The translations under genes were made by a program, and so were the position numbers. The notes under the pieces are model-generated. The model worked only from the letters and a program-made list of their open reading frames with translations. It was not told the origin of the DNA and ran no database searches. A stretch of 36,882 nt of DNA from a bacterium CG_4_9_14_3_um_filter_65_15 (GTDB lineage Bacteria > Krumholzibacteriota > Krumholzibacteriia > LZORAL124-64-63), in the NCBI GenBank assembly GCA_002790835.1, contig PFVX01000012.1, positions 1-36,882 of the forward strand, given 5' to 3'. Positions 2,386-34,646 of this stretch are shown here, piece by piece. How positions within the stretch are numbered: position 1 is the first letter of the stretch; each line of letters begins with the position of its first letter.

Positions 2386-2388
2386 GAG

Positions 2389-2486
2389 CCTGCCGTTAGG
2401 GGTGGCCGCCTCCTTCTCCGGGAGGCAGCCTGAGAGAAACCCTTGGAACCTGAACCGGATTATGCCGGCGTAGGGAAACGGGCCGG
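2389..2486 (+). promoter_or_regulatory. TPP riboswitch (thi-box aptamer)
   Basis: The conserved thi-box blocks occur in order: GGGGTG at 2399, CTGAGA at about 2432, ACCCTTGGAACCTGA, then TGCCGGCGTAGGGA ending near 2476. A P1 stem is formed by CCGTT (2393-2397) and AACGG (2477-2481), extended outward with a bulge. The optional P3a hairpin is present as GCCTCC and GGAGGC. The P4 stem pairs CCGG with CCGG around ATTATG. TPP binding to this fold switches expression of downstream thiamine genes in many bacteria. The operon behind it, encoding a receptor, thiamine pyrophosphokinase and a transporter, fits. Confidence 0.95.
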
Positions 2487-2489
2487 ACT

Positions 2490-2515
2490 CGGCGCCTGAC
2501 GGAGGTGCCGTTTTT
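2490..2515 (+). terminator. Intrinsic terminator in the riboswitch expression platform
   Basis: CGGCGCC (2490-2496) pairs with GGTGCCG (2504-2510), giving seven pairs including one G-T, over a 7-nt loop. TTTTT follows directly. It starts only a few bases after the aptamer's P1 stem and ends about 45 bp before the receptor start codon. That is the layout of a transcriptional OFF switch: with TPP bound, RNA polymerase should stop here. Confidence 0.85.
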
Positions 2516-2561
2516 GTTTGCCTCCCGCTTCCACTGCCTGGCTGACCTTGCGAGGTATGCC

Positions 2562-4808
2562 ATGCGATTCCTGTTGTCGTTTTTCCTGCTCGCCCTGCTC
2601 CTACCCGGCGCCGCAACCGGGGAACCGGTCGCCGTCCAGCCCGATACCACGGTGACCGTCGACGACGGGGTGGTCGTCACCGCCAGCCGCTACGACGCCT
2701 CGGGCGGCGTCAACCTGACCAACATCACCCACGCAGAACTCGCTCTGCACGATCCGGATCAGGCGTTGCCCCTGCTCCTGCAGTCCATGCCGGGGGTGTT
2801 CGCCTACAGCGACGCCGGCAGCGGTCTGGGCTATACCTATCTGCGGGTGCGCGGATTCGACCAGCGCCGCGTGGGCGTGCTCTTCAACGGGATCCCCTTC
2901 AACGACCCCGAGGATCACCAGGTGTGGTGGGTGGACCTGCCGGACCTGGCCGCGAGCATCCAGGACATCCAGGTCCAGCGCGGGGTGACCAATTCGGTCG
3001 GCGGCATGACGGCCATCGGGGGAACGGTGAACATCGAGTCGGCGGATCTGGACTACCGACCCGGAGGCATGTTCTCGCTCGGCACCGGCAGCTACGGCTT
3101 CGCGCGCCAGATGGTCAGCTACCAGACCGGCGCCCTGGAGGGCGGCTTCCGCTCGCAGGTGCGGCTGTCCCACCAGGAGAGCGACGGCTACCGCGACCGC
3201 AGTGGGTACGATGGGTGGGCGGTGTTCTGGAGCGGGCAGTACGAGACCGAGTGCACCACCACCCGGGTCAACATCTACACGGGCCGCGAACTGACCCATC
3301 ACGCGTGGGACGCGGTGCCCCAGTCGGTGCTGGCGGTGGACCGCACGGCGAACATGGAGACCTACGCGGGCGCCGTGGACGACTTCCGCCAGCCCCACTA
3401 CGAACTGCACAACACGGTCTATCTGAGCGACGCGGTGACCCTGACCAACCGCCTGTACTTCATCCACGGCAGCGGGTTCTACGAGAACTACAAGGAAGCC
3501 CAGACCGCCGAAGATTACGCCCTCGACCGGTACCTGGGCCTGTCGGCGGACGACACGGTGGACTTGATTCGCCGCAAGTGGGTGCGCAAGAACCACGTCG
3601 GCTGGGTGCCGTCGCTGCGCTGGGAGCAGGGCCGCGGCCGGCTGCTGGTGGGCGGCGACTGGTACACCTTCCATTCCGACCACTGGGGCGATGTGCTGTG
3701 GGCCGATGGCTTCACGCCCGGGGATTTCACCACCCCCTGGAAATACCACCAGTACACCGGCGACAAGGACGCCTGGTCGGTCTACGTGAACCAGCGCTAT
3801 GATGTCGCTTCCGGCCTGACGGTCGTGGGGGATCTGCAGTTCCAGCACAAGCGCTACGCATTCATGCAGGACGAGGTGGGGAACTTCAGCGGGGATTTGC
3901 GCAACGCCTACACGGTGGACTACGACTTCACCAATCCCCGCGGTTCGTTGACCTGGCAGGTTCCCGGCAGTTTAGGCGGCGGTGACCTGAAGACCTGGGC
4001 CAGCGTGGGGCGCAACCACCGCGAGCCCACCGACGGCGAGCTGTTCGACACCTGGCAGAGCGGCAGCGACCTGGGAGCCCGGCCCCTTTTCGCCGACAGC
4101 CTCGCCGTTCTGGGGCCCGGGGGCGACATCGCCTACGTCGAACGGTCCGGTCCCCTGGTGCACGCGGAAAGAGTCACCGACTACGAGGTCGGTGTGGCCT
4201 GGCGGGGATCGCGCCTGAGCGTGACCGCAGGGGGCTACATCATGGATTTCCGCAACGAGATCGTGCCCTACGGCGGGGTGAACGAAGACGGGAGCAGCAT
4301 CCGCGGCAACGCCGGCAAGACGCTGCATCGCGGTCTGGAACTCGGCGTGCGCGCCGGCTTGGCCGCCGGGCACGACCTCAGCCTGGCCGCTTCGCGCAGC
4401 TGGGACGAATTCGACGAGTTCCTCTTTCACGACTGGGACGGCACGACCTACGACTTCAGCGGCAACCCCATCGCCCTGTTTCCCTCGCACCTGCTGATGG
4501 GAGCGTGGACCGGCGCCTGGTCCGACGGCGTGCGCACCCGCTTGCGCGTGCGCAACACGGGGCGGCAGCATCTGGACAACTCGGGGCTGGACGACCGCAC
4601 CATCGATCCGTGGACCACGGTGGATGTGTCGCTGTGGCTCGATCCGGTTTCCCTGGGCCTGAGCGGGCTGGACGGCGCCACGGCTTTCGTGCATCTTAGG
4701 AACATCTTCGACACCGAATACGAGACATGGGGCTACTGGTACGGCGAGAACTACCTGACCCCCGCAGCGGGGCGGAATTTCGCCCTGGGAATGGACTACC
4801 GCTTCTGA
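2562..4808 (+). CDS. TonB-dependent outer-membrane receptor, probable thiamine receptor (Omr1-like)
   Basis: The protein has 748 residues from the ATG at 2562, which follows GAGG and begins a clear signal peptide (residues 1-20). The earlier in-frame start lies inside the terminator and would spoil the signal peptide. A TonB-box-like stretch near residues 30-42 (VTVDDGVVVTASR) precedes the plug domain at about 45-160, with the typical LRVRGFDQRRVGVLFNGIP and GGTVNIES signatures. The rest is a long barrel of alternating strands ending in F-A-L-G-M-D-Y-R-F, the usual terminal strand with a C-terminal Phe. Substrate is inferred from context: a TPP riboswitch lies directly upstream, and the stop overlaps the start of thiamine pyrophosphokinase by one base. 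Riboswitch-controlled TonB receptors of this kind are known as Omr1 in Bacteroidetes. Confidence 0.88.
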   Translation: MRFLLSFFLLALLLPGAATGEPVAVQPDTTVTVDDGVVVTASRYDASGGVNLTNITHAELALHDPDQALPLLLQSMPGVFAYSDAGSGLGYTYLRVRGFDQRRVGVLFNGIPFNDPEDHQVWWVDLPDLAASIQDIQVQRGVTNSVGGMTAIGGTVNIESADLDYRPGGMFSLGTGSYGFARQMVSYQTGALEGGFRSQVRLSHQESDGYRDRSGYDGWAVFWSGQYETECTTTRVNIYTGRELTHHAWDAVPQSVLAVDRTANMETYAGAVDDFRQPHYELHNTVYLSDAVTLTNRLYFIHGSGFYENYKEAQTAEDYALDRYLGLSADDTVDLIRRKWVRKNHVGWVPSLRWEQGRGRLLVGGDWYTFHSDHWGDVLWADGFTPGDFTTPWKYHQYTGDKDAWSVYVNQRYDVASGLTVVGDLQFQHKRYAFMQDEVGNFSGDLRNAYTVDYDFTNPRGSLTWQVPGSLGGGDLKTWASVGRNHREPTDGELFDTWQSGSDLGARPLFADSLAVLGPGGDIAYVERSGPLVHAERVTDYEVGVAWRGSRLSVTAGGYIMDFRNEIVPYGGVNEDGSSIRGNAGKTLHRGLELGVRAGLAAGHDLSLAASRSWDEFDEFLFHDWDGTTYDFSGNPIALFPSHLLMGAWTGAWSDGVRTRLRVRNTGRQHLDNSGLDDRTIDPWTTVDVSLWLDPVSLGLSGLDGATAFVHLRNIFDTEYETWGYWYGENYLTPAAGRNFALGMDYRF

Positions 4809-26968: not shown

Positions 26969-29077
26969 ATGGCCCTGCTTGTTCCTCCCGCCAGCCTCAC
27001 CGTCCTTGCCCCGGCCTACATCGGCCCCGGCGCCGGGTTCGCCCTTGGCGGCTCGTTCCTGTTCGCCCTGGCGGGGATAGGGTTGGCGGCGGTGGCTCTG
27101 CTGGCCTGGCCGGTGCGGGTGGTCGTGCGCATGATACGCGCCCGGCGGCGACCCGGCCGGGCCAAGGCACGCCGTGTCGTGACCCTCGGCCTCGACGGCC
27201 TGGATCCCATCCTGGCGCGCAAGTGGATGGACGCGGGGCAGATGCCCAACCTGGCCCGTCTGAAGGCCGAAGGCGGTTTCCGCCCCCTGGGCACCACCTG
27301 GCCCGCCATGTCCCCGGTGGGGTGGTCGACCTTCGCCACCGGGGTGGATCCTTCCGGCCACAACATTTTCGATTTCCTGAATCGGGACATGGTCACCCAC
27401 CTGCCGATCCTGTCGTCCACGCGTTTGAAGACCCACTCGACCCGGCGCCACCTGGGGCCCGTGCCCCTGCCGGGCGGCGATCACCCCTTCGAATTGTTGC
27501 GGCGCAGCAAACCCTTCTGGACCACCTGCGGCGAGCAGGGCGTGGCCAGTTCCGTGCTGCGCATTCCCATCACCTTTCCGCCGGATCGCTTCGCCGGCCG
27601 GCAGCTTTCGGCCATGTGCGTGCCCGATCTGCGCGGAACCCAGGGGACCTTCACCCATTTTTCGGCCCCGGGTGAAGATCCGGCCGGTCGCACCACCGGC
27701 GGAGACCGGCGCACCCTGGAAGCGGCGGGTCCGGATACCTGGCGGGGCGAGTTGCCGGGGCCCGACCGCAGCCACGGAAGCGGCGTTCAGACCGTTGCGG
27801 TCACGGTCAAGGTGGATGCCTCGGCCCGACGCGCCGAATTCGAACTGGACGGCAACCGGTTCACCCTCGGCGAGCACGAGTACTCCGAATGGATTCCCTT
27901 GTGTTTTTGTGAAGGCCGCCGCCGGGCGTACGGCATCTGCAAGGTGCGGGTCACGCGGTTCGAGGCGCCGTTCGCGTTCTACGTCTCGCCGGTGAACATC
28001 GATCCCCTGCATCCGGCCTTTCCCATCAGCCAGCCGGCCCACTTTTCCCTGGCTCTGGCAAGGCTGCACGGCCGTTTCGCCACCCTGGGTCTGGCGGAAG
28101 ACACCTGGGCTTTGAACGAACGGGTCATCGACGAGCAGGCTTTCCTGGATCAGGCCTGGGCCAACCACGCCGAAAGGGAACGGCAGCTCTTCCATGCCCT
28201 GGATCACCAGCCCGACGGCGTCATCTCGGTGGTCTTCGACGCCACCGACCGCATCCAGCACATGTTCTTCCGTTACCTGGAGCCCGATCACCCGGCCAAC
28301 GCGGGCAAGGATACCGAGCGCCACAAGGACGCCATCGCGCAGCTGTACACCCGGGCCGACGATCTGGTGGGGCGGGTGCTGGCCAAGCTCGGGCCTCGGG
28401 ACGTGCTGCTGGTGGTCTCCGACCACGGCTTCAAGTCGTTCCGGCGCGGGGTGAATCTCAACGCCTGGTTCCGGCGCAACGGCTATCTGTACCTGAAGAG
28501 CGATCCCGTATTCGGGCCGTTGCCGCAGATCCCGGTGGGCACCCGATACGAGGCCACCGACGTGGACTGGACCCGCACCCGCGCCTACACCAACGGCCTG
28601 GCGGGGTTCTACCTGAACATCGCGGGCCGGGAGCGGAACGGCTGTGTGCCGCCTGAAGAGGCGCTTGCCCTCAAGCGCGAGATCATCGATCAGTTGCGCG
28701 GCCTGCCCGACCCCGCGGGCGGCGGCGAGGCCGTCACCGAGTTGTGGGCCGGCGAGGACATCTACCCGGGGCCGTACCGGGAGAACGGGCCCGACGTCAT
28801 CGTGGGCTACAAACCGGGCTACCGCACCGATTGGGATGCGGCCGTCGGCGCCGTCACCGATTTGATCGTCAGCGACAACACCCGCAGCTGGAGCGGAGAC
28901 CACTGCATGGATCCGCGCCAGGTTCCGGGAGTCCTGTTCAGCAACCGGTCGTTCGCGGCGACCCGGCCGGACCTGCGCGACATCGCCCCCAGCGTGCTGG
29001 ACCTGCTGGGCTTGCCGGTGCCGCGGCACATGACCGGTCGCAGCATCTTCGCCCCCGAACCGGAGCAGGCACCATGA
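26969..29077 (+). CDS. Membrane-anchored alkaline-phosphatase-superfamily phosphodiesterase-like protein (first of three)
   Basis: The 702-residue protein resembles the predicted phosphohydrolase/phosphomutase group COG3379. An N-terminal AYIGPGAG motif (16-23) leads into a single transmembrane helix (about 25-48) and a basic stretch, after which the catalytic domain begins. The metal-site residues are D76 in LGLDGLDP, a probable nucleophile S115 in MSPVGWSTFATG, D-x3-H in TDRIQH, D485-H486 in VSDHGF and the last His in SGDHCMD. There is no sulfatase C-x-P-x-R, so it is not a formylglycine enzyme. A long insert (about 230-345) is shared with the next protein. The ribosome binding site is weak. 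The stop overlaps the next start in ATGA. The substrate is unknown; phospho- or phosphono-ester cleavage is likely. Confidence 0.82.
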   Translation: MALLVPPASLTVLAPAYIGPGAGFALGGSFLFALAGIGLAAVALLAWPVRVVVRMIRARRRPGRAKARRVVTLGLDGLDPILARKWMDAGQMPNLARLKAEGGFRPLGTTWPAMSPVGWSTFATGVDPSGHNIFDFLNRDMVTHLPILSSTRLKTHSTRRHLGPVPLPGGDHPFELLRRSKPFWTTCGEQGVASSVLRIPITFPPDRFAGRQLSAMCVPDLRGTQGTFTHFSAPGEDPAGRTTGGDRRTLEAAGPDTWRGELPGPDRSHGSGVQTVAVTVKVDASARRAEFELDGNRFTLGEHEYSEWIPLCFCEGRRRAYGICKVRVTRFEAPFAFYVSPVNIDPLHPAFPISQPAHFSLALARLHGRFATLGLAEDTWALNERVIDEQAFLDQAWANHAERERQLFHALDHQPDGVISVVFDATDRIQHMFFRYLEPDHPANAGKDTERHKDAIAQLYTRADDLVGRVLAKLGPRDVLLVVSDHGFKSFRRGVNLNAWFRRNGYLYLKSDPVFGPLPQIPVGTRYEATDVDWTRTRAYTNGLAGFYLNIAGRERNGCVPPEEALALKREIIDQLRGLPDPAGGGEAVTELWAGEDIYPGPYRENGPDVIVGYKPGYRTDWDAAVGAVTDLIVSDNTRSWSGDHCMDPRQVPGVLFSNRSFAATRPDLRDIAPSVLDLLGLPVPRHMTGRSIFAPEPEQAP

Positions 29078-31023
29078 GAAGGGCTTCACTGCTGCTGGCG
29101 CTGGTGATCGTGTTTGTGGCCGGGTCCGCCCTCGGCGCCGGGCCGCGGGTGTTGGTCCTGGGCTTCGACGGCATGGACCCCGTCCTGCTGGAGCAGTTCC
29201 GCAGCGAGGGCGCCATGCCCAACTTCGAGAAGTTCCTGGCCGCGGGGGGGCAGCTCGAACCTTTCGCCACCAGCACCCCTCCCCAGTCACCGGTGGCCTG
29301 GTCGAACTTCATCACCGGCATGGATCCCGGCGGCCACGGCATCTTCGATTTCATCCACCGCGACGCCAAGACCATGCTGCCGTTCTTCTCGGCCAGCGAG
29401 GCCAAGGGCGCCGCCCGGTTCTGGCGTTTCGGCTCCTGGAAGATCCCGCGCGGCGGCAGCGAGGTGAACAACCTGCGCCACGGCACCGCGTTCTGGGAGC
29501 TGCTGGCCGACCGCGGCATCGACGCGACGATCTTCAAGGTCCCCTCGAACTTCCCGCCGGTGGACTGCGAGGCCCGGAGTCTTTCGGGCATGGGCACGCC
29601 CGACATCACGGGCAACTACGGTATCTCCACCCTGATCACCGACGACCCCCCGGTGAACAGGGACCTGGGCGGCGGGCGCGTGGTCTCGGTCTACCTGGAC
29701 CGGGGCCGGTTCACCGCCGACCTGGAAGGCCCGCCCAACGCCTACCGCGAGGGCGATCCGGCCGCGCTGGTGACGGTCGAGGGCCGTGTGGATCGCGCGC
29801 GCAAGGCCATCTGGCTGGATGTGGGCGGACGGCCCGTGGTTCTGGACGAGGGGCAGTGGAGCGAATGGGTGCCGGTGTCTTTTCCCTTGGTGCCCCTGAT
29901 CAAGTCGGTGCCGGCGATCTGCCGCTTCTACCTCATGGAGACCGATCCGTTGCGGCTGTACGTCACGCCCATCCAGATCGACCCCGAGAACCCGGAAATG
30001 CCCATCAGCACGCCGCCCGACTACAGCCGGAAAATCGCGGAGCAGACCGGGCTCTACTACACCCAGGGGCTGCCCGACGACACCAGCGCTTTGGAGAACG
30101 GTTTCTTCAGCGACGCGGACTACGTCGGCCAGAGTGAAATGGTGTTGCAGGAACGCGTGCGACAGCTCGAGGCCGAGCTGGACCGTTTCGCCGCTCTGGA
30201 CCGGGGCTTCCTCTTCTTCTACTTCAATTCCCCCGACCAGACCTGCCACATGACCTGGCGTAACATGGATCCGTCCAGCCCGACCCACGCCGAATCCGAC
30301 CTGGACCAGACGGGACGCATCCGCCAGGTCTACGCCGAACTGGACGCCGCCCTGGGTATGGCCCTGGCGCGTGTGCCGGACGACACCGTGGTCATGGTCA
30401 TGAGCGACCACGGCTTCGGGCCCTGGAACCGCGCCTTCAACGTCAACACCTGGCTTTTCGAGAATGGCTACCTGGCTCTGCAGCCGGGCGCCGATCCCGC
30501 CAACGTGCAGATGCTTCTGGGCGTGGACTGGTCCCGCACACGGGCCTACGCCATCGGCATCAACGGGCTCTACCTGAACCTGGCGGGACGCGAGCGGGGA
30601 GGGATCGTGCAGCCGGGCGCCGAGCAGGAGGCCCTGCTGGCGGAGCTGAAATCCCGGCTGGAGCAGGTGACCGACCCGCTGGACGGCCGGCGTGCGATCA
30701 AGACCGCCGACCGGTCCGACCAGGTCTACCACGGCGACAGGCGGGACATCGGTCCCGACATCGTGGTAGGTTACTATCGCGGTTGGCGCGGCAGCAACGA
30801 ATCGGCCATGGGCGAGATTCCGCCCCAGGTCTTCACGGACAACATGCTGAAGTGGAGCGGCGACCACTGCATCGCCGCGTCCGAAGTTCCGGGGATCATC
30901 ATGGCCAACCGGCCCCTGCTGCGCGAGCAGCCGGCATTGGTGGACATGGCCCCCACCATCCTGAAGCTGTTCGGAATCGATCCTTTGCCCGATATGGTGG
31001 GCGGGAGCGTGTTCGAGAAATAA
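29074..31023 (+). CDS. Secreted alkaline-phosphatase-superfamily phosphodiesterase-like protein (second of three)
   Basis: This 649-residue protein has a signal peptide (residues 1-22). The superfamily site is complete: D32 in LGFDGMDP, S72 in QSPVAWSNFITG, D-x3-H in DQTCH, D445-H446 in MSDHGF and SGDHCIA. It is a close paralogue of the preceding protein. Both carry an inserted domain with WSEWVPVSF or YSEWIPLCF, an I-D-P-x-x-P-x-x-P-I-S segment, and W-S/T-R-T-R-A-Y with L-N-x-A-G-R-E-R. This suggests tandem duplication. It begins in the ATGA overlap. The transmembrane anchor of the first copy is replaced by a cleavable signal, so this copy should be periplasmic or surface-released. Confidence 0.83.
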   Translation: MRRASLLLALVIVFVAGSALGAGPRVLVLGFDGMDPVLLEQFRSEGAMPNFEKFLAAGGQLEPFATSTPPQSPVAWSNFITGMDPGGHGIFDFIHRDAKTMLPFFSASEAKGAARFWRFGSWKIPRGGSEVNNLRHGTAFWELLADRGIDATIFKVPSNFPPVDCEARSLSGMGTPDITGNYGISTLITDDPPVNRDLGGGRVVSVYLDRGRFTADLEGPPNAYREGDPAALVTVEGRVDRARKAIWLDVGGRPVVLDEGQWSEWVPVSFPLVPLIKSVPAICRFYLMETDPLRLYVTPIQIDPENPEMPISTPPDYSRKIAEQTGLYYTQGLPDDTSALENGFFSDADYVGQSEMVLQERVRQLEAELDRFAALDRGFLFFYFNSPDQTCHMTWRNMDPSSPTHAESDLDQTGRIRQVYAELDAALGMALARVPDDTVVMVMSDHGFGPWNRAFNVNTWLFENGYLALQPGADPANVQMLLGVDWSRTRAYAIGINGLYLNLAGRERGGIVQPGAEQEALLAELKSRLEQVTDPLDGRRAIKTADRSDQVYHGDRRDIGPDIVVGYYRGWRGSNESAMGEIPPQVFTDNMLKWSGDHCIAASEVPGIIMANRPLLREQPALVDMAPTILKLFGIDPLPDMVGGSVFEK

Positions 31024-31036
31024 GAGGAGGTGCCGC

Positions 31037-31237
31037 ATGTTCGGCGGCGGTGACAAGATCAAGCTGGACAAGGAACTCATGGCCAAGGTGCGCAAGTACA
31101 GCGAGCTGGCCGGCTATTCCACGGCCGAGGAGTTCGTGCACCACGTCCTGGAGAAGGAGCTGTCGAAGTTCGAGGAAGGCGGCGCCTCGGAAGAGGAGAT
31201 CCGCAAGCGGATGCAGGGACTGGGTTACATTTCCTAG
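31037..31237 (+). CDS. 66-residue ribbon-helix-helix-like protein with LGYI tail
   Basis: A strong GAGGAGG lies 6 nt before the ATG. Residues 7-47 resemble a ribbon-helix-helix unit: a short strand (KIKLDKEL), then helix-turn-helix segments rich in Lys and Glu (RKYSELAGYSTAEEFVHHVLEKEL). The last 15 residues (EEEIRKRMQGLGYIS) form a tail resembling the C-terminus of the third phosphodiesterase of this operon. It is fused operonically: 13 nt after the second enzyme, zero nt before the membrane protein. It could be a DNA-binding repressor of the operon, but lying between enzyme genes it may equally be a protein-protein connector. I know of no characterised member. Confidence 0.7.
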   Translation: MFGGGDKIKLDKELMAKVRKYSELAGYSTAEEFVHHVLEKELSKFEEGGASEEEIRKRMQGLGYIS

Positions 31238-32053
31238 ATGGCTACTCTGAACGGCATCGTTTCCGGACTGTTCGACGTGGTGTGCCGGCCCCTGGGCGGA
31301 CACCCCGCCTGGGCCATGGTGGTCCTGGCCGGGTTGACCGGGGTGTGGGCCCTGGCTCTGTTCAAGCTCGCCACGCCCCAGAAACGCCTGGCCCGCAGTC
31401 GCGACCTCCTGTTCGGCCACATCTTCGAGATGGGCATGTACCAGGATCACCTGCGCGTGCTGGCCAAGATCCAGAAGGATCTGGCGCTGGCCAACCTGCG
31501 CTACCTGGCGCTGTCGCTGCCCGCCCTGGTGGTGCTGATCGTGCCCATGGTGCTGACCTTGGCGCAACTGGAGGGACGCTTCGCCAAGCGTCCCCTGCAC
31601 TCCGGGGAGGCGACGGTGCTGACGGTGGGTTTTGCCGCCGCGCCCGATCCGGACAAAGTCCGCCTGGAGCTGCCGCCCGGCGTGATGGTGGAGGCGGGGC
31701 CGGTGTTCGATCGGCAAGGTGGCGCCATGGCCTGGCGCCTGCGGGTCAACGGCGTTGGAGAGTTGCCGGCGCGGGTGACGGTCGCCGGAAAGACCGCAGC
31801 CGACATCGTCCTGCACGCGGGAGAGGGCCTGCCGCTGACGAGCCGCAAGCTGGGAGCGACGTGGTGGGAGAAGTTGCTGTATCCGGGGTGGCGGACGCTC
31901 CCCGCGGACAGCCCCGTGTCATCGTGGGAGGCGACCTACCCCGACCGCCACGTGGCTTATCTGGGCATCGGGTTGAACTGGCTGGTGGCGTTCATGATCC
32001 TTTCTGTGGCCGCGGGGCTGGCCTGCAAGGACGCCCTGGGCGTGGAGATGTGA
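31238..32053 (+). CDS. Three-helix membrane protein of unknown function
   Basis: The 271-residue protein starts immediately after the stop of the small protein (TAG then ATG). It has transmembrane helices at about 25-44, 88-110 and 240-263. Between the first two lies a basic amphipathic stretch (TPQKRLARSRDLLFGHIFEM, 46-65, then DHLRVLAKIQKDL). The helix-coil-helix arrangement recalls YidC/Oxa1-type insertases of the DUF106 kind, without certainty. Residues 111-238 form a soluble, probably beta-rich domain with RPLHSGEATVLTV. Position in the operon suggests it presents or assembles the exported enzymes. The function is unknown. Confidence 0.65.
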   Translation: MATLNGIVSGLFDVVCRPLGGHPAWAMVVLAGLTGVWALALFKLATPQKRLARSRDLLFGHIFEMGMYQDHLRVLAKIQKDLALANLRYLALSLPALVVLIVPMVLTLAQLEGRFAKRPLHSGEATVLTVGFAAAPDPDKVRLELPPGVMVEAGPVFDRQGGAMAWRLRVNGVGELPARVTVAGKTAADIVLHAGEGLPLTSRKLGATWWEKLLYPGWRTLPADSPVSSWEATYPDRHVAYLGIGLNWLVAFMILSVAAGLACKDALGVEM

Positions 32054-32093
32054 ACCCAAGGTAGGATGCGAACCCATGGAAGGCGGAGTGGGC

Positions 32094-33398
32094 ATGAAGG
32101 CAAGGCGGGGGCTCATCGGGACGATGGTGATTCTGGCCGGCTTGATCGGCTTGGCCGCCCTGTGGAGCGGCTGCGGCGGCGATCAGCCCGTGGATCCGCA
32201 GGCCCAGAAGCTGCTGGTCATCGGCATCGATTCGGCGGACTGGCGGCTGCTCGACCCCATGATCGAGGATGGGCGCATGCCCAACCTGGCCGGATTCCTG
32301 GATCAGGCCGCCACCGGCCGCATGAAGACCTTCGTGCCCCTGGAGAAGTCGCCCCTGCTGTGGGCCAGCATCTGCACGGGAGTCGAACCGGAGGTTCACG
32401 GGATTCTGCAGTTCGTCAAGGGTCAGGAGGAGGAGCTGGTTTCGAGCAGCTCCTGGCGCGCGCCCGCCCTGTGGGACATCCTGGACGCCGCCGGACGCAC
32501 CACCGACGTCATGGGCATGTGGACGACTTATCCCGCTCGCGACATCGCCGGGGTGATGGTCAGCGATTACCTGCCCTACGCGGACAAGGGACCCCTGCCG
32601 AAACTCGTGACGCCGGATTCGTTGACCGACGCGATCACCGCCCTGCGGGTTACGCCCGAGGCGGTCACGCGGCAGGACCTGGCCCGGTTCATCCCCGCCG
32701 ACCTGCTGGACGAAGCCGAGGCCGCCTACCCCCGTCAGGTCCAGGAGTTGCGGGACGTCTTCGCCTCCGACCTCACCTATCTGGCCGTCGCCGACTACCT
32801 CGCCCACCACGGCGCCGAACCCGACCTGTTCTTCTTCTACCTGCGCGGGCCCGACCGCATCAGCCACCACTTCTACCAGTACATGGCCGTCGATAAGGAT
32901 TTCGTACATGCGGATCCGGCCGAGGTCGCCGCGTTCAAGGACGTCGTCCGGAACTATTACGCCTGGGTGGATGAGGCCGTGGGAGAGGTCCTTGGCTGGT
33001 TCCCTCCCGACCGTCCGACCGTGGTGCTATCGGACCACGGGTTCTACGGCCCGCGCCAGAGCGGCAACAAGGGGGTCAAGGAGCACAGCGAGTGGGGGAT
33101 CTTCGCGGTGCGCAGCCCCCTGTACCGGGCGGGGGTCCGCTTCGGACACCTGGAGCTGCTGGACATCTGCCCGACCATGCTGGCCTTGCTGGGGTTGCCG
33201 CCGGCCAAGGACATGCCCGGCATGATCCTGAGCGAACCGGCCACCTCGGACGGCGCCAAGCGCCTGTCGCGCCTCGACGAGCACCGTGTGGAGTCCTATC
33301 AGGGGCTGGCTCCGGCGTCGGGCCCGGCGGGCGAACGCAACCCCGAGATCGACGAGCAGATCCGCAAGCAGCTCCGGTCCCTGGGCTACATCAACTGA
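32094..33398 (+). CDS. Exported alkaline-phosphatase-superfamily protein (third of three), possible lipoprotein
   Basis: The protein has 434 residues from ATG 32094, where GGAG lies 6 nt upstream; ATG 32076, six codons earlier, is a possible alternative. The N-terminus is one hydrophobic helix ending in LWSGC (C27), a poor lipobox, so lipidation is uncertain. The superfamily residues are D46 in IGIDSADW, S in KSPLLWASICTG, D-x3-H in PDRISH, D314-H315 in LSDHGF and a later His in KEHSEWGIF. It lacks the large insert of the first two proteins. It ends IRKQLRSLGYIN, resembling the tail of the 66-residue protein. The gene begins 40 nt after the membrane-protein gene. The substrate is unknown. Confidence 0.8.
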   Translation: MKARRGLIGTMVILAGLIGLAALWSGCGGDQPVDPQAQKLLVIGIDSADWRLLDPMIEDGRMPNLAGFLDQAATGRMKTFVPLEKSPLLWASICTGVEPEVHGILQFVKGQEEELVSSSSWRAPALWDILDAAGRTTDVMGMWTTYPARDIAGVMVSDYLPYADKGPLPKLVTPDSLTDAITALRVTPEAVTRQDLARFIPADLLDEAEAAYPRQVQELRDVFASDLTYLAVADYLAHHGAEPDLFFFYLRGPDRISHHFYQYMAVDKDFVHADPAEVAAFKDVVRNYYAWVDEAVGEVLGWFPPDRPTVVLSDHGFYGPRQSGNKGVKEHSEWGIFAVRSPLYRAGVRFGHLELLDICPTMLALLGLPPAKDMPGMILSEPATSDGAKRLSRLDEHRVESYQGLAPASGPAGERNPEIDEQIRKQLRSLGYIN

Positions 33399-33470: not shown

Positions 33471-34646
33471 CTATTGCGTTTCGGCGGCCGCCGTGAACTT
33501 CTGCAACTGCTCCTTGTAGTAGTCCTTGTCCGGTGCGAGATCGGCCGCGCGCTGGGCGAAACCGACCGCGTCGGCCAGCTGCCCCCGGGCGGCGCTGATC
33601 TCGGCCGCGGTGTCGAGGATGCTCGCGCGCGCTTCATCATCCCGGGCGAGATCGACGCCCTGCATGGCGAGCTTTTGCGCCTCGTCCAGGTTGATCTCGT
33701 TCTGGAAACACCACCAGGCGAAGCTGTTCAACTGGCCGGCATCCTGCTGCCAGTCCTCAGGCAGCATGCCCTTGCGCAGCTTGACGGCCTTGCCCGCATC
33801 GTGGTCCACCAGCAGGGCGTGTTCCACCATGAGCCCCTGCCGTGTGGGGCTGGGTTCGGCATCTCCGATGTCCTGGTCAAGGGCGGCCTTGAGGTAGGGC
33901 GCGGCCCGCTCGGGAATCTCCATGGACTGGGCCAGGCTGGACATCATGGCAGCCAGGGACTCGATCTGGTCGACGGTGGCGCCGGGGGCGGCCAGGGCCA
34001 GGTCGGCCTCGGATGCTACCTCGTCGAAGGTGAAGACCGAGTCGCGGGACCCGTAGAACATGTTGCTCAGGATCTGGTCCGAGCAGTAGGCCGCGCGGGA
34101 GGGGTCCAGGTCGCGAGCGGTGCGGAAGTACTTCACCGCCGTCTTGTAGTCCATGACGCAGGCGGCGTCGTTGGCCAGGCACTCGGCCAAAGCCCCGTTG
34201 GGCTCCTTGGCGAAGGCCTCCTTCTTGGCCGCGATGGTGCGTGTGTCGGAGCGGGCCTTTTCCACGGAAGCCACCCAGGCCTCGACGCCGTCGAAGCCCA
34301 GCCAGCGGTCGGTGATCTCACCTTTTCCGTTGACGGCCACGAAGGTGGGCAGAGCCCGGATGCCGTACTTCTCGGCCAGTTCCCTGTTGTTGTCGGTGTT
34401 GACCTTGGCAAAGACTGAGCCCTCGAGAGCGGCCGCGATGGCAGGGTTGGTGTCCGCCGCACGGGCGAACTGACGGCAGCTGGGTCACCAATCGGCGTAG
34501 AAGTCGACGATCACCAGCTGGTTGTTGGCCTGAGCCGCAGTCAGGGCGGCGTCGAGGGACTCTGCAGGGGTGACCTGGGCCTGGGCGCCGCCTGCAACGA
34601 GCAGGACGAGGGCGCAAAGGGCCAGGGTCGGGCGGGACTTTGCCAT
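33471..34646 (-). CDS. Selenocysteine-containing thioredoxin with helical-repeat C-terminus (UGA read as Sec at residue 54)
   Basis: One continuous frame runs from ATG 34646, 7 nt after GAGGAG, to 33471, broken only by a TGA at 34487-34485. Residues 1-24 are a signal peptide. The thioredoxin fold follows: VIVDFYADW, then the TGA, then PSC, so the TGA stands at the first Cys of W-C-x-x-C and the motif is W-U-P-S-C. The domain continues with AKVNTDNN and the cis-proline in ALPTF (P100), all after the TGA and in frame. A bacterial-SECIS-like hairpin starts 14 nt after the TGA. Residues about 140-391 are helical TPR-like repeats. It is probably an exported thiol-disulfide enzyme. Alternatives are a pseudogene or a TGC-to-TGA sequencing error. 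Without readthrough only a 53-residue peptide would form. Confidence 0.85.
34452..34487 (-). promoter_or_regulatory. In-frame UGA and bacterial SECIS element
   Basis: The UGA codon occupies 34487-34485. Fourteen nucleotides later GTTCGCC (34470-34464) pairs with GGCGGAC (34458-34452), giving seven pairs with one G-U over the loop CGTGC (34463-34459). The distance from UGA to the loop is 21 nt, and a G stands at the second loop position. Published features of bacterial SECIS elements, namely a loop about 16-37 nt from the UGA with a G among its first two bases, are met. It would recruit SelB with Sec-tRNA. Confidence 0.75.

Follow-up and report, generated by a model that had tools for sequence, protein, structure and literature searches.

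A Krumholzibacteriota thioredoxin-TPR protein whose active-site UGA is almost certainly read as selenocysteine

Described thioredoxin-fold systems and the gene analysed

Prokaryotic selenoproteins have been catalogued in 2026 as 119 families and subfamilies, including thioredoxin, thiol:disulfide interchange, DsbA/DsbG-like, TlpA-like and other thioredoxin-fold proteins (PMC13188914). TsoB was catalogued there with two selenocysteine (Sec) residues in a UxxxxU motif, and bacterial SECIS elements (bSECIS) were delimited by a loop of 3 to 9 nt with G in position 1 or 2, a stem of 4 to 16 bp, a UGA-to-loop distance of 16 to 37 nt and a minimum free energy (MFE) of -7.5 or lower (PMC13188914). CnoX, which carries CXXC or SXXC and no Sec, cooperates with the cytoplasmic GroEL and DnaK (PMC6282202). 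Like CnoX/YbbN, the protein described here has a thioredoxin domain at the N-terminus, fused to TPR helices at the C-terminus. Its gene lies in the window (the whole stretch of 36,882 nucleotides that was analysed), with the following features.

33471..34646, minus strand: complete predicted selenoprotein gene, 391 amino acids with Sec at residue 54 (Sec54; translation with TGA as U), TAG stop at 33473-33471
34485..34487, minus strand: UGA codon for Sec54 in the UPSC motif, UGA in 29 genes and TGT or TGC in 4 orthologues
34575..34646, minus strand: predicted Sec-type signal peptide (MAKSRPTLALCALVLLVAGGAQAQ), basic residues followed by a hydrophobic core and small residues
34248..34532, minus strand: thioredoxin domain, about residues 39-133, with UPSC and the cis-proline P100 (PF00085, AlphaFold2 model)
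33474..34235, minus strand: all-helical TPR-like domain, residues 138-391, with invariant W312-C313 in AWWC (AlphaFold2 secondary structure, TPR matches)
34452..34470, minus strand: SECIS-like hairpin GUUCGCC-CGUGC-GGCGGAC, apical loop at 34459-34463, 21 nt after the UGA (consensus fold, control pairing, loss in Cys forms, synonymous freeze)

Direct reading of the minus strand gave an ATG start at 34646 with GAGGAG upstream, and a frame down to 33471 in which the TGA at 34487-34485 was the sole internal stop, bearing out the intact frame claimed in a preliminary description of this DNA. VDFYADW just before the TGA, PSCRQF just after it and the later ALPTF were all read in this frame; the TGA occupies the position of the first active-site Cys of the thioredoxin domain, as had also been claimed. 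Truncation by gene finders at V103 had been predicted as well, and table-11 ORF calling returned a 289-aa ORF that begins exactly at this GTG and ends at 33471. Standard gene callers would cut the gene at V103, so that the active site would be missing from the product. Values of dN/dS downstream of the UGA ranged from 0.06 to 0.54 (seven pairs), which indicates that this part of the frame is under purifying selection.

Architecture and putative function in the cell envelope

In members whose N-terminus is intact, visual inspection and hydrophobicity revealed a signal-like segment there, and the protein is predicted to be exported. The thioredoxin domain scored 54.8 bits against PF00085 (cut-off 23.5), a model matched by all 25 members of alignment A1 (25 family members, full length except one fragment), in which F49, W53, U54, C57 and P100 were invariant. 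The AlphaFold2 model, built with 25 sequences (mean pLDDT 93.7, pTM 0.84), displayed a thioredoxin fold up to about residue 133, then helices over residues 138-390; these TPR-like helices span about 250 residues, with TPR_2 matches in 21 of the 25 members. Export together with a long helical C-terminal domain had been put forward as unusual, a view that holds given the signal-like N-terminus, the model and the TPR matches. Across 31 Sec and Cys orthologues, residues U/C54, C57, P100, W299, N307, W312 and C313, among others, were invariant. C313 of the AWWC motif, encoded at 33708-33710 (minus strand) within the TPR-like domain, was kept in 32 of 32 aligned Sec and Cys orthologues. The window protein scored above the cut-off of none of the NCBIfam models.

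The protein is proposed to act in the envelope as a disulfide reductase or isomerase, its TPR part serving as the arm that binds clients. The most likely role, a thiol-disulfide reductase of the envelope with a DsbD-like donor, in which both substrate and donor are presumed, is given about an even chance. In the mechanism proposed, the hairpin 15 nt past the UGA would recruit SelB and the Sec-tRNA, so that the ribosome would read codon 54 as Sec and this residue would be inserted there. The mature protein would be located in the cell envelope, its TPR-like domain holding a client while Sec54 attacks disulfides, or sulfur groups oxidised in other ways, on that client. Cys57 would resolve the mixed selenenyl sulfide, with re-reduction of the selenoprotein probably falling to a DsbD-like membrane protein. 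One such DsbD-like protein, which scored 283 bits and so below its cut-off of 330, is encoded in the genome and could be the electron source. The invariant Cys313 might also have a role. A selenium-based redox chaperone of the envelope, joining a Sec-thioredoxin to a TPR client-binding domain, with Cys313 as a third redox partner of Sec54 and client binding coupled to selenenyl-sulfide chemistry, was considered and seems rather improbable.

The selenoprotein could instead be an envelope chaperone-redox factor comparable to the chaperedoxin CnoX/YbbN, that is, a TPR holdase whose Sec54 guards client thiols by mixed selenenyl sulfides and which is not a general disulfide reductase. By architecture the top PDB match was indeed E. 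coli YbbN/CnoX (3qou), likewise a thioredoxin domain with TPR, and CnoX of Caulobacter combines the activity of a holdase with that of a thioredoxin-type oxidoreductase (PMC6282202). However, whole-chain superposition was poor (TM 0.23/0.31, rmsd 20.9), from which the modelled overall structure does not appear to be that of YbbN, and the protein looks exported given its signal peptide, whereas CnoX works with GroEL and DnaK (PMC6282202). This alternative is possible but unlikely, and the thiol-disulfide reductase is retained as the working proposal.

No conserved operon was found around the family loci, the neighbours pointing to no single pathway; an amidohydrolase was encoded upstream in about half of the loci. 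Elsewhere in the window, a TPP riboswitch (2388-2493, plus strand, 65.5 bits) lies immediately upstream of the gene for a TonB-dependent receptor (2505-4808), which suggests a thiamine-regulated outer-membrane transporter. Three genes of the type I phosphodiesterase/nucleotide pyrophosphatase family (26969-29077, 28744-31023 and 32076-33398) are close together at 26969-33398 (plus strand), with an unnamed 271-aa ORF between them.

Decoding of the internal UGA

Across the 80 genomes searched within the phylum, 29 genes (including that of the window) displayed UGA at exactly the Sec54 codon. Within the family, the active-site part of the gene was found in 26 genomes, each with one internal stop, always TGA and always at the same codon, and the phylum search added UGA forms in genomes G039, G040 and G043. 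Orthologues in G044, G045, G046 and G047 had no internal stop and displayed TGT, TGC, TGT and TGT, respectively, at this position. The preliminary description had proposed Cys or UGA in homologues as a check on its selenoprotein reading, and Sec (29 genes) and Cys (4 genes) were the only residues found at position 54. UGA forms spanned three family-level groups, the four Cys orthologues lying in a fourth, and all UGA forms retained the second active-site Cys; more distant paralogues carried CGPC or CGSC. Sec and Cys forms were clustered on the tree, with two label changes when paralogues were included; as this tree is unrooted and has long branches, it does not settle in which direction Sec and Cys were exchanged.

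The gene is not universal in the family, 11 of the 38 genomes (some of them incomplete) having no match at 1e-20, and the order-level search returned the same genomes as the family-level search. A scan of named genomes gave thioredoxin-domain matches only and no full-length relatives, and no relatives were found on plasmids. The distant UGA orthologue of G040 (L170) displayed Gly for the usual Trp before Sec (IDGUGGC). The genome of the window also encodes a CGPC thioredoxin-domain protein of similar size (L172, 1401-2720), whose likeness is limited to the thioredoxin domain.

The genome itself, a draft of 3.39 Mb in 94 contigs, harbored every part of the Sec machinery that had been proposed for verification. 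SelA (446 bits), SelB (308 bits, with an extra match to the C-terminal part of the model in the same open frame), SelD (361 bits) and tRNA-Sec (69.6 bits, anticodon TCA by ARAGORN) all scored over their curated cut-offs. The frame of SelD contained an internal TGA in SAGUAAKLSP; this gene (L128, G000:C8:31606-32523) is itself a candidate selenoprotein, with a hairpin bearing a GGG apical loop after the UGA. SelA was found in 36 of the 38 family genomes. Of 27 genomes drawn mostly from other families within the class, 25 had it, the two without it being those already missed in the family. The Sec trait is thus nearly universal among the phylum genomes tested.

All UGA forms had TTCRCCCGTGNGG in common from 15 nt past the UGA, and the consensus UUCRCC-CGUGN-GGYRRA, beginning at this distance, described an invariant hairpin. 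The hairpin of the window (MFE -11.0 kcal/mol, z -2.81) had a 7-bp stem and the 5-nt loop CGUGC with G at position 2, and satisfied the bSECIS limits of PMC13188914 for loop, stem, G, spacing and MFE. Most relatives displayed a stem of 6 to 8 bp and a 5-nt CGUGN loop; the loop of L170 had 3 nt. Folding into the hairpin was obtained for 28 of 28 UGA sequences (-7.9 to -12.3 kcal/mol) and for none of the four Cys orthologues (-3.0 to -4.4 kcal/mol). Over 24 sequences, 96.9% of the cells were paired versus 36 to 59% for slid versions. Of 500 shuffles, 5 reached the covariation score; the excess is modest since the hairpin hardly varies. Over six codons starting at +6 after the UGA, synonymous codons were 99.5% identical versus 58% gene-wide, the highest of 377 windows along the gene.

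Rfam SECIS families gave no match and a longer 45-nt stretch folded no better than shuffles (z -0.62), so that the argument at the RNA level comes down to the short hairpin, its conservation and its loss in the Cys forms. Unlike the fdhF element of E. coli, the hairpin has no bulged U. The exact UGA-plus-hairpin pattern occurred once in the genome; other selenoproteins there, such as SelD, must use different sequences.

With UGA or Cys in the orthologues, the Sec machinery in the genome and a hairpin limited to the UGA forms, the earlier reading of UPSC as a selenoprotein motif is supported, and the internal UGA of the gene is almost certainly decoded as selenocysteine. Decoding of the UGA as a different amino acid (Trp or Gly in a variant code, for instance) or plain stop readthrough would also leave the frame open; yet many orthologues end in UGA as an ordinary stop, which means that there is no global change of the code, the only residue to replace Sec among the orthologues is Cys, and the genome carries the complete Sec machinery, all of which makes such readings very improbable. 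No other convincing TGA-split frame with high GC3 on both sides was found in the window, and so there is no sign of TGA being reassigned throughout. A possible second selenoprotein, suggested by a TGA in a DsbD-like frame of the genome (L171), was discarded, as this TGA reads as a normal stop at the end of the DsbD match. A cysteine thioredoxin gene altered by a pseudogene mutation or an assembly error, where a single change from TGC or TGT to TGA in one draft genome would mimic the picture, is the least credible explanation given a codon common to 29 genomes, purifying selection after the UGA and a conserved hairpin, and 29 separate assemblies with the same codon exclude an isolated sequencing error in practice. 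Pseudogene, sequencing error and code reassignment were all rejected on the orthologue evidence.

Comparison with known selenoproteins and redox proteins

A thioredoxin-TPR entry was not among the 119 catalogued families, and "TPR" and "tetratricopeptide" were absent from the text of the catalogue (PMC13188914). The main text of the deep-Sep paper held no thioredoxin-TPR term, and a full-text literature search for the combination returned nothing relevant; subscription papers, preprints and supplementary tables were mostly outside its scope, and a listing elsewhere is possible. An exported thioredoxin with TPR as a selenoprotein is thus an architecture unnamed in NCBIfam and in the 2026 catalogue.

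The thioredoxin domain resembles the C-terminal (gamma) domain of DsbD: NF001419 matched 25 of 25 members, and the structure search also returned 1uc7 and 2fwe. Unlike DsbD, the protein has no membrane electron-transfer domain, and it reached 55.4 of 330 bits against the DsbD model, over the thioredoxin part only and below the subfamily cut-off. The model of TsoB, a rhodanese/DsbD fusion-like selenoprotein (NF045694), was partially matched over the thioredoxin-like domain (38 of 805 bits), and the classical thioredoxin model TIGR01068 gave 61 of 96.8 bits, below the equivalog cut-off.

The natural Sec/Cys pairs, in which the hairpin is lost exactly with Sec, offer a clean comparison for why an envelope thiol enzyme keeps selenium. 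With Sec thioredoxins and thioredoxin-like selenoproteins, the protein shares the thioredoxin fold, Sec as the first residue of UxxC, Cys homologues and a bSECIS just past the UGA (PMC13188914). Compared with the catalogued Sec thioredoxins, it adds a predicted signal peptide and a TPR-like helical domain with AWWC, and is a new architecture among known thioredoxin-fold selenoproteins.
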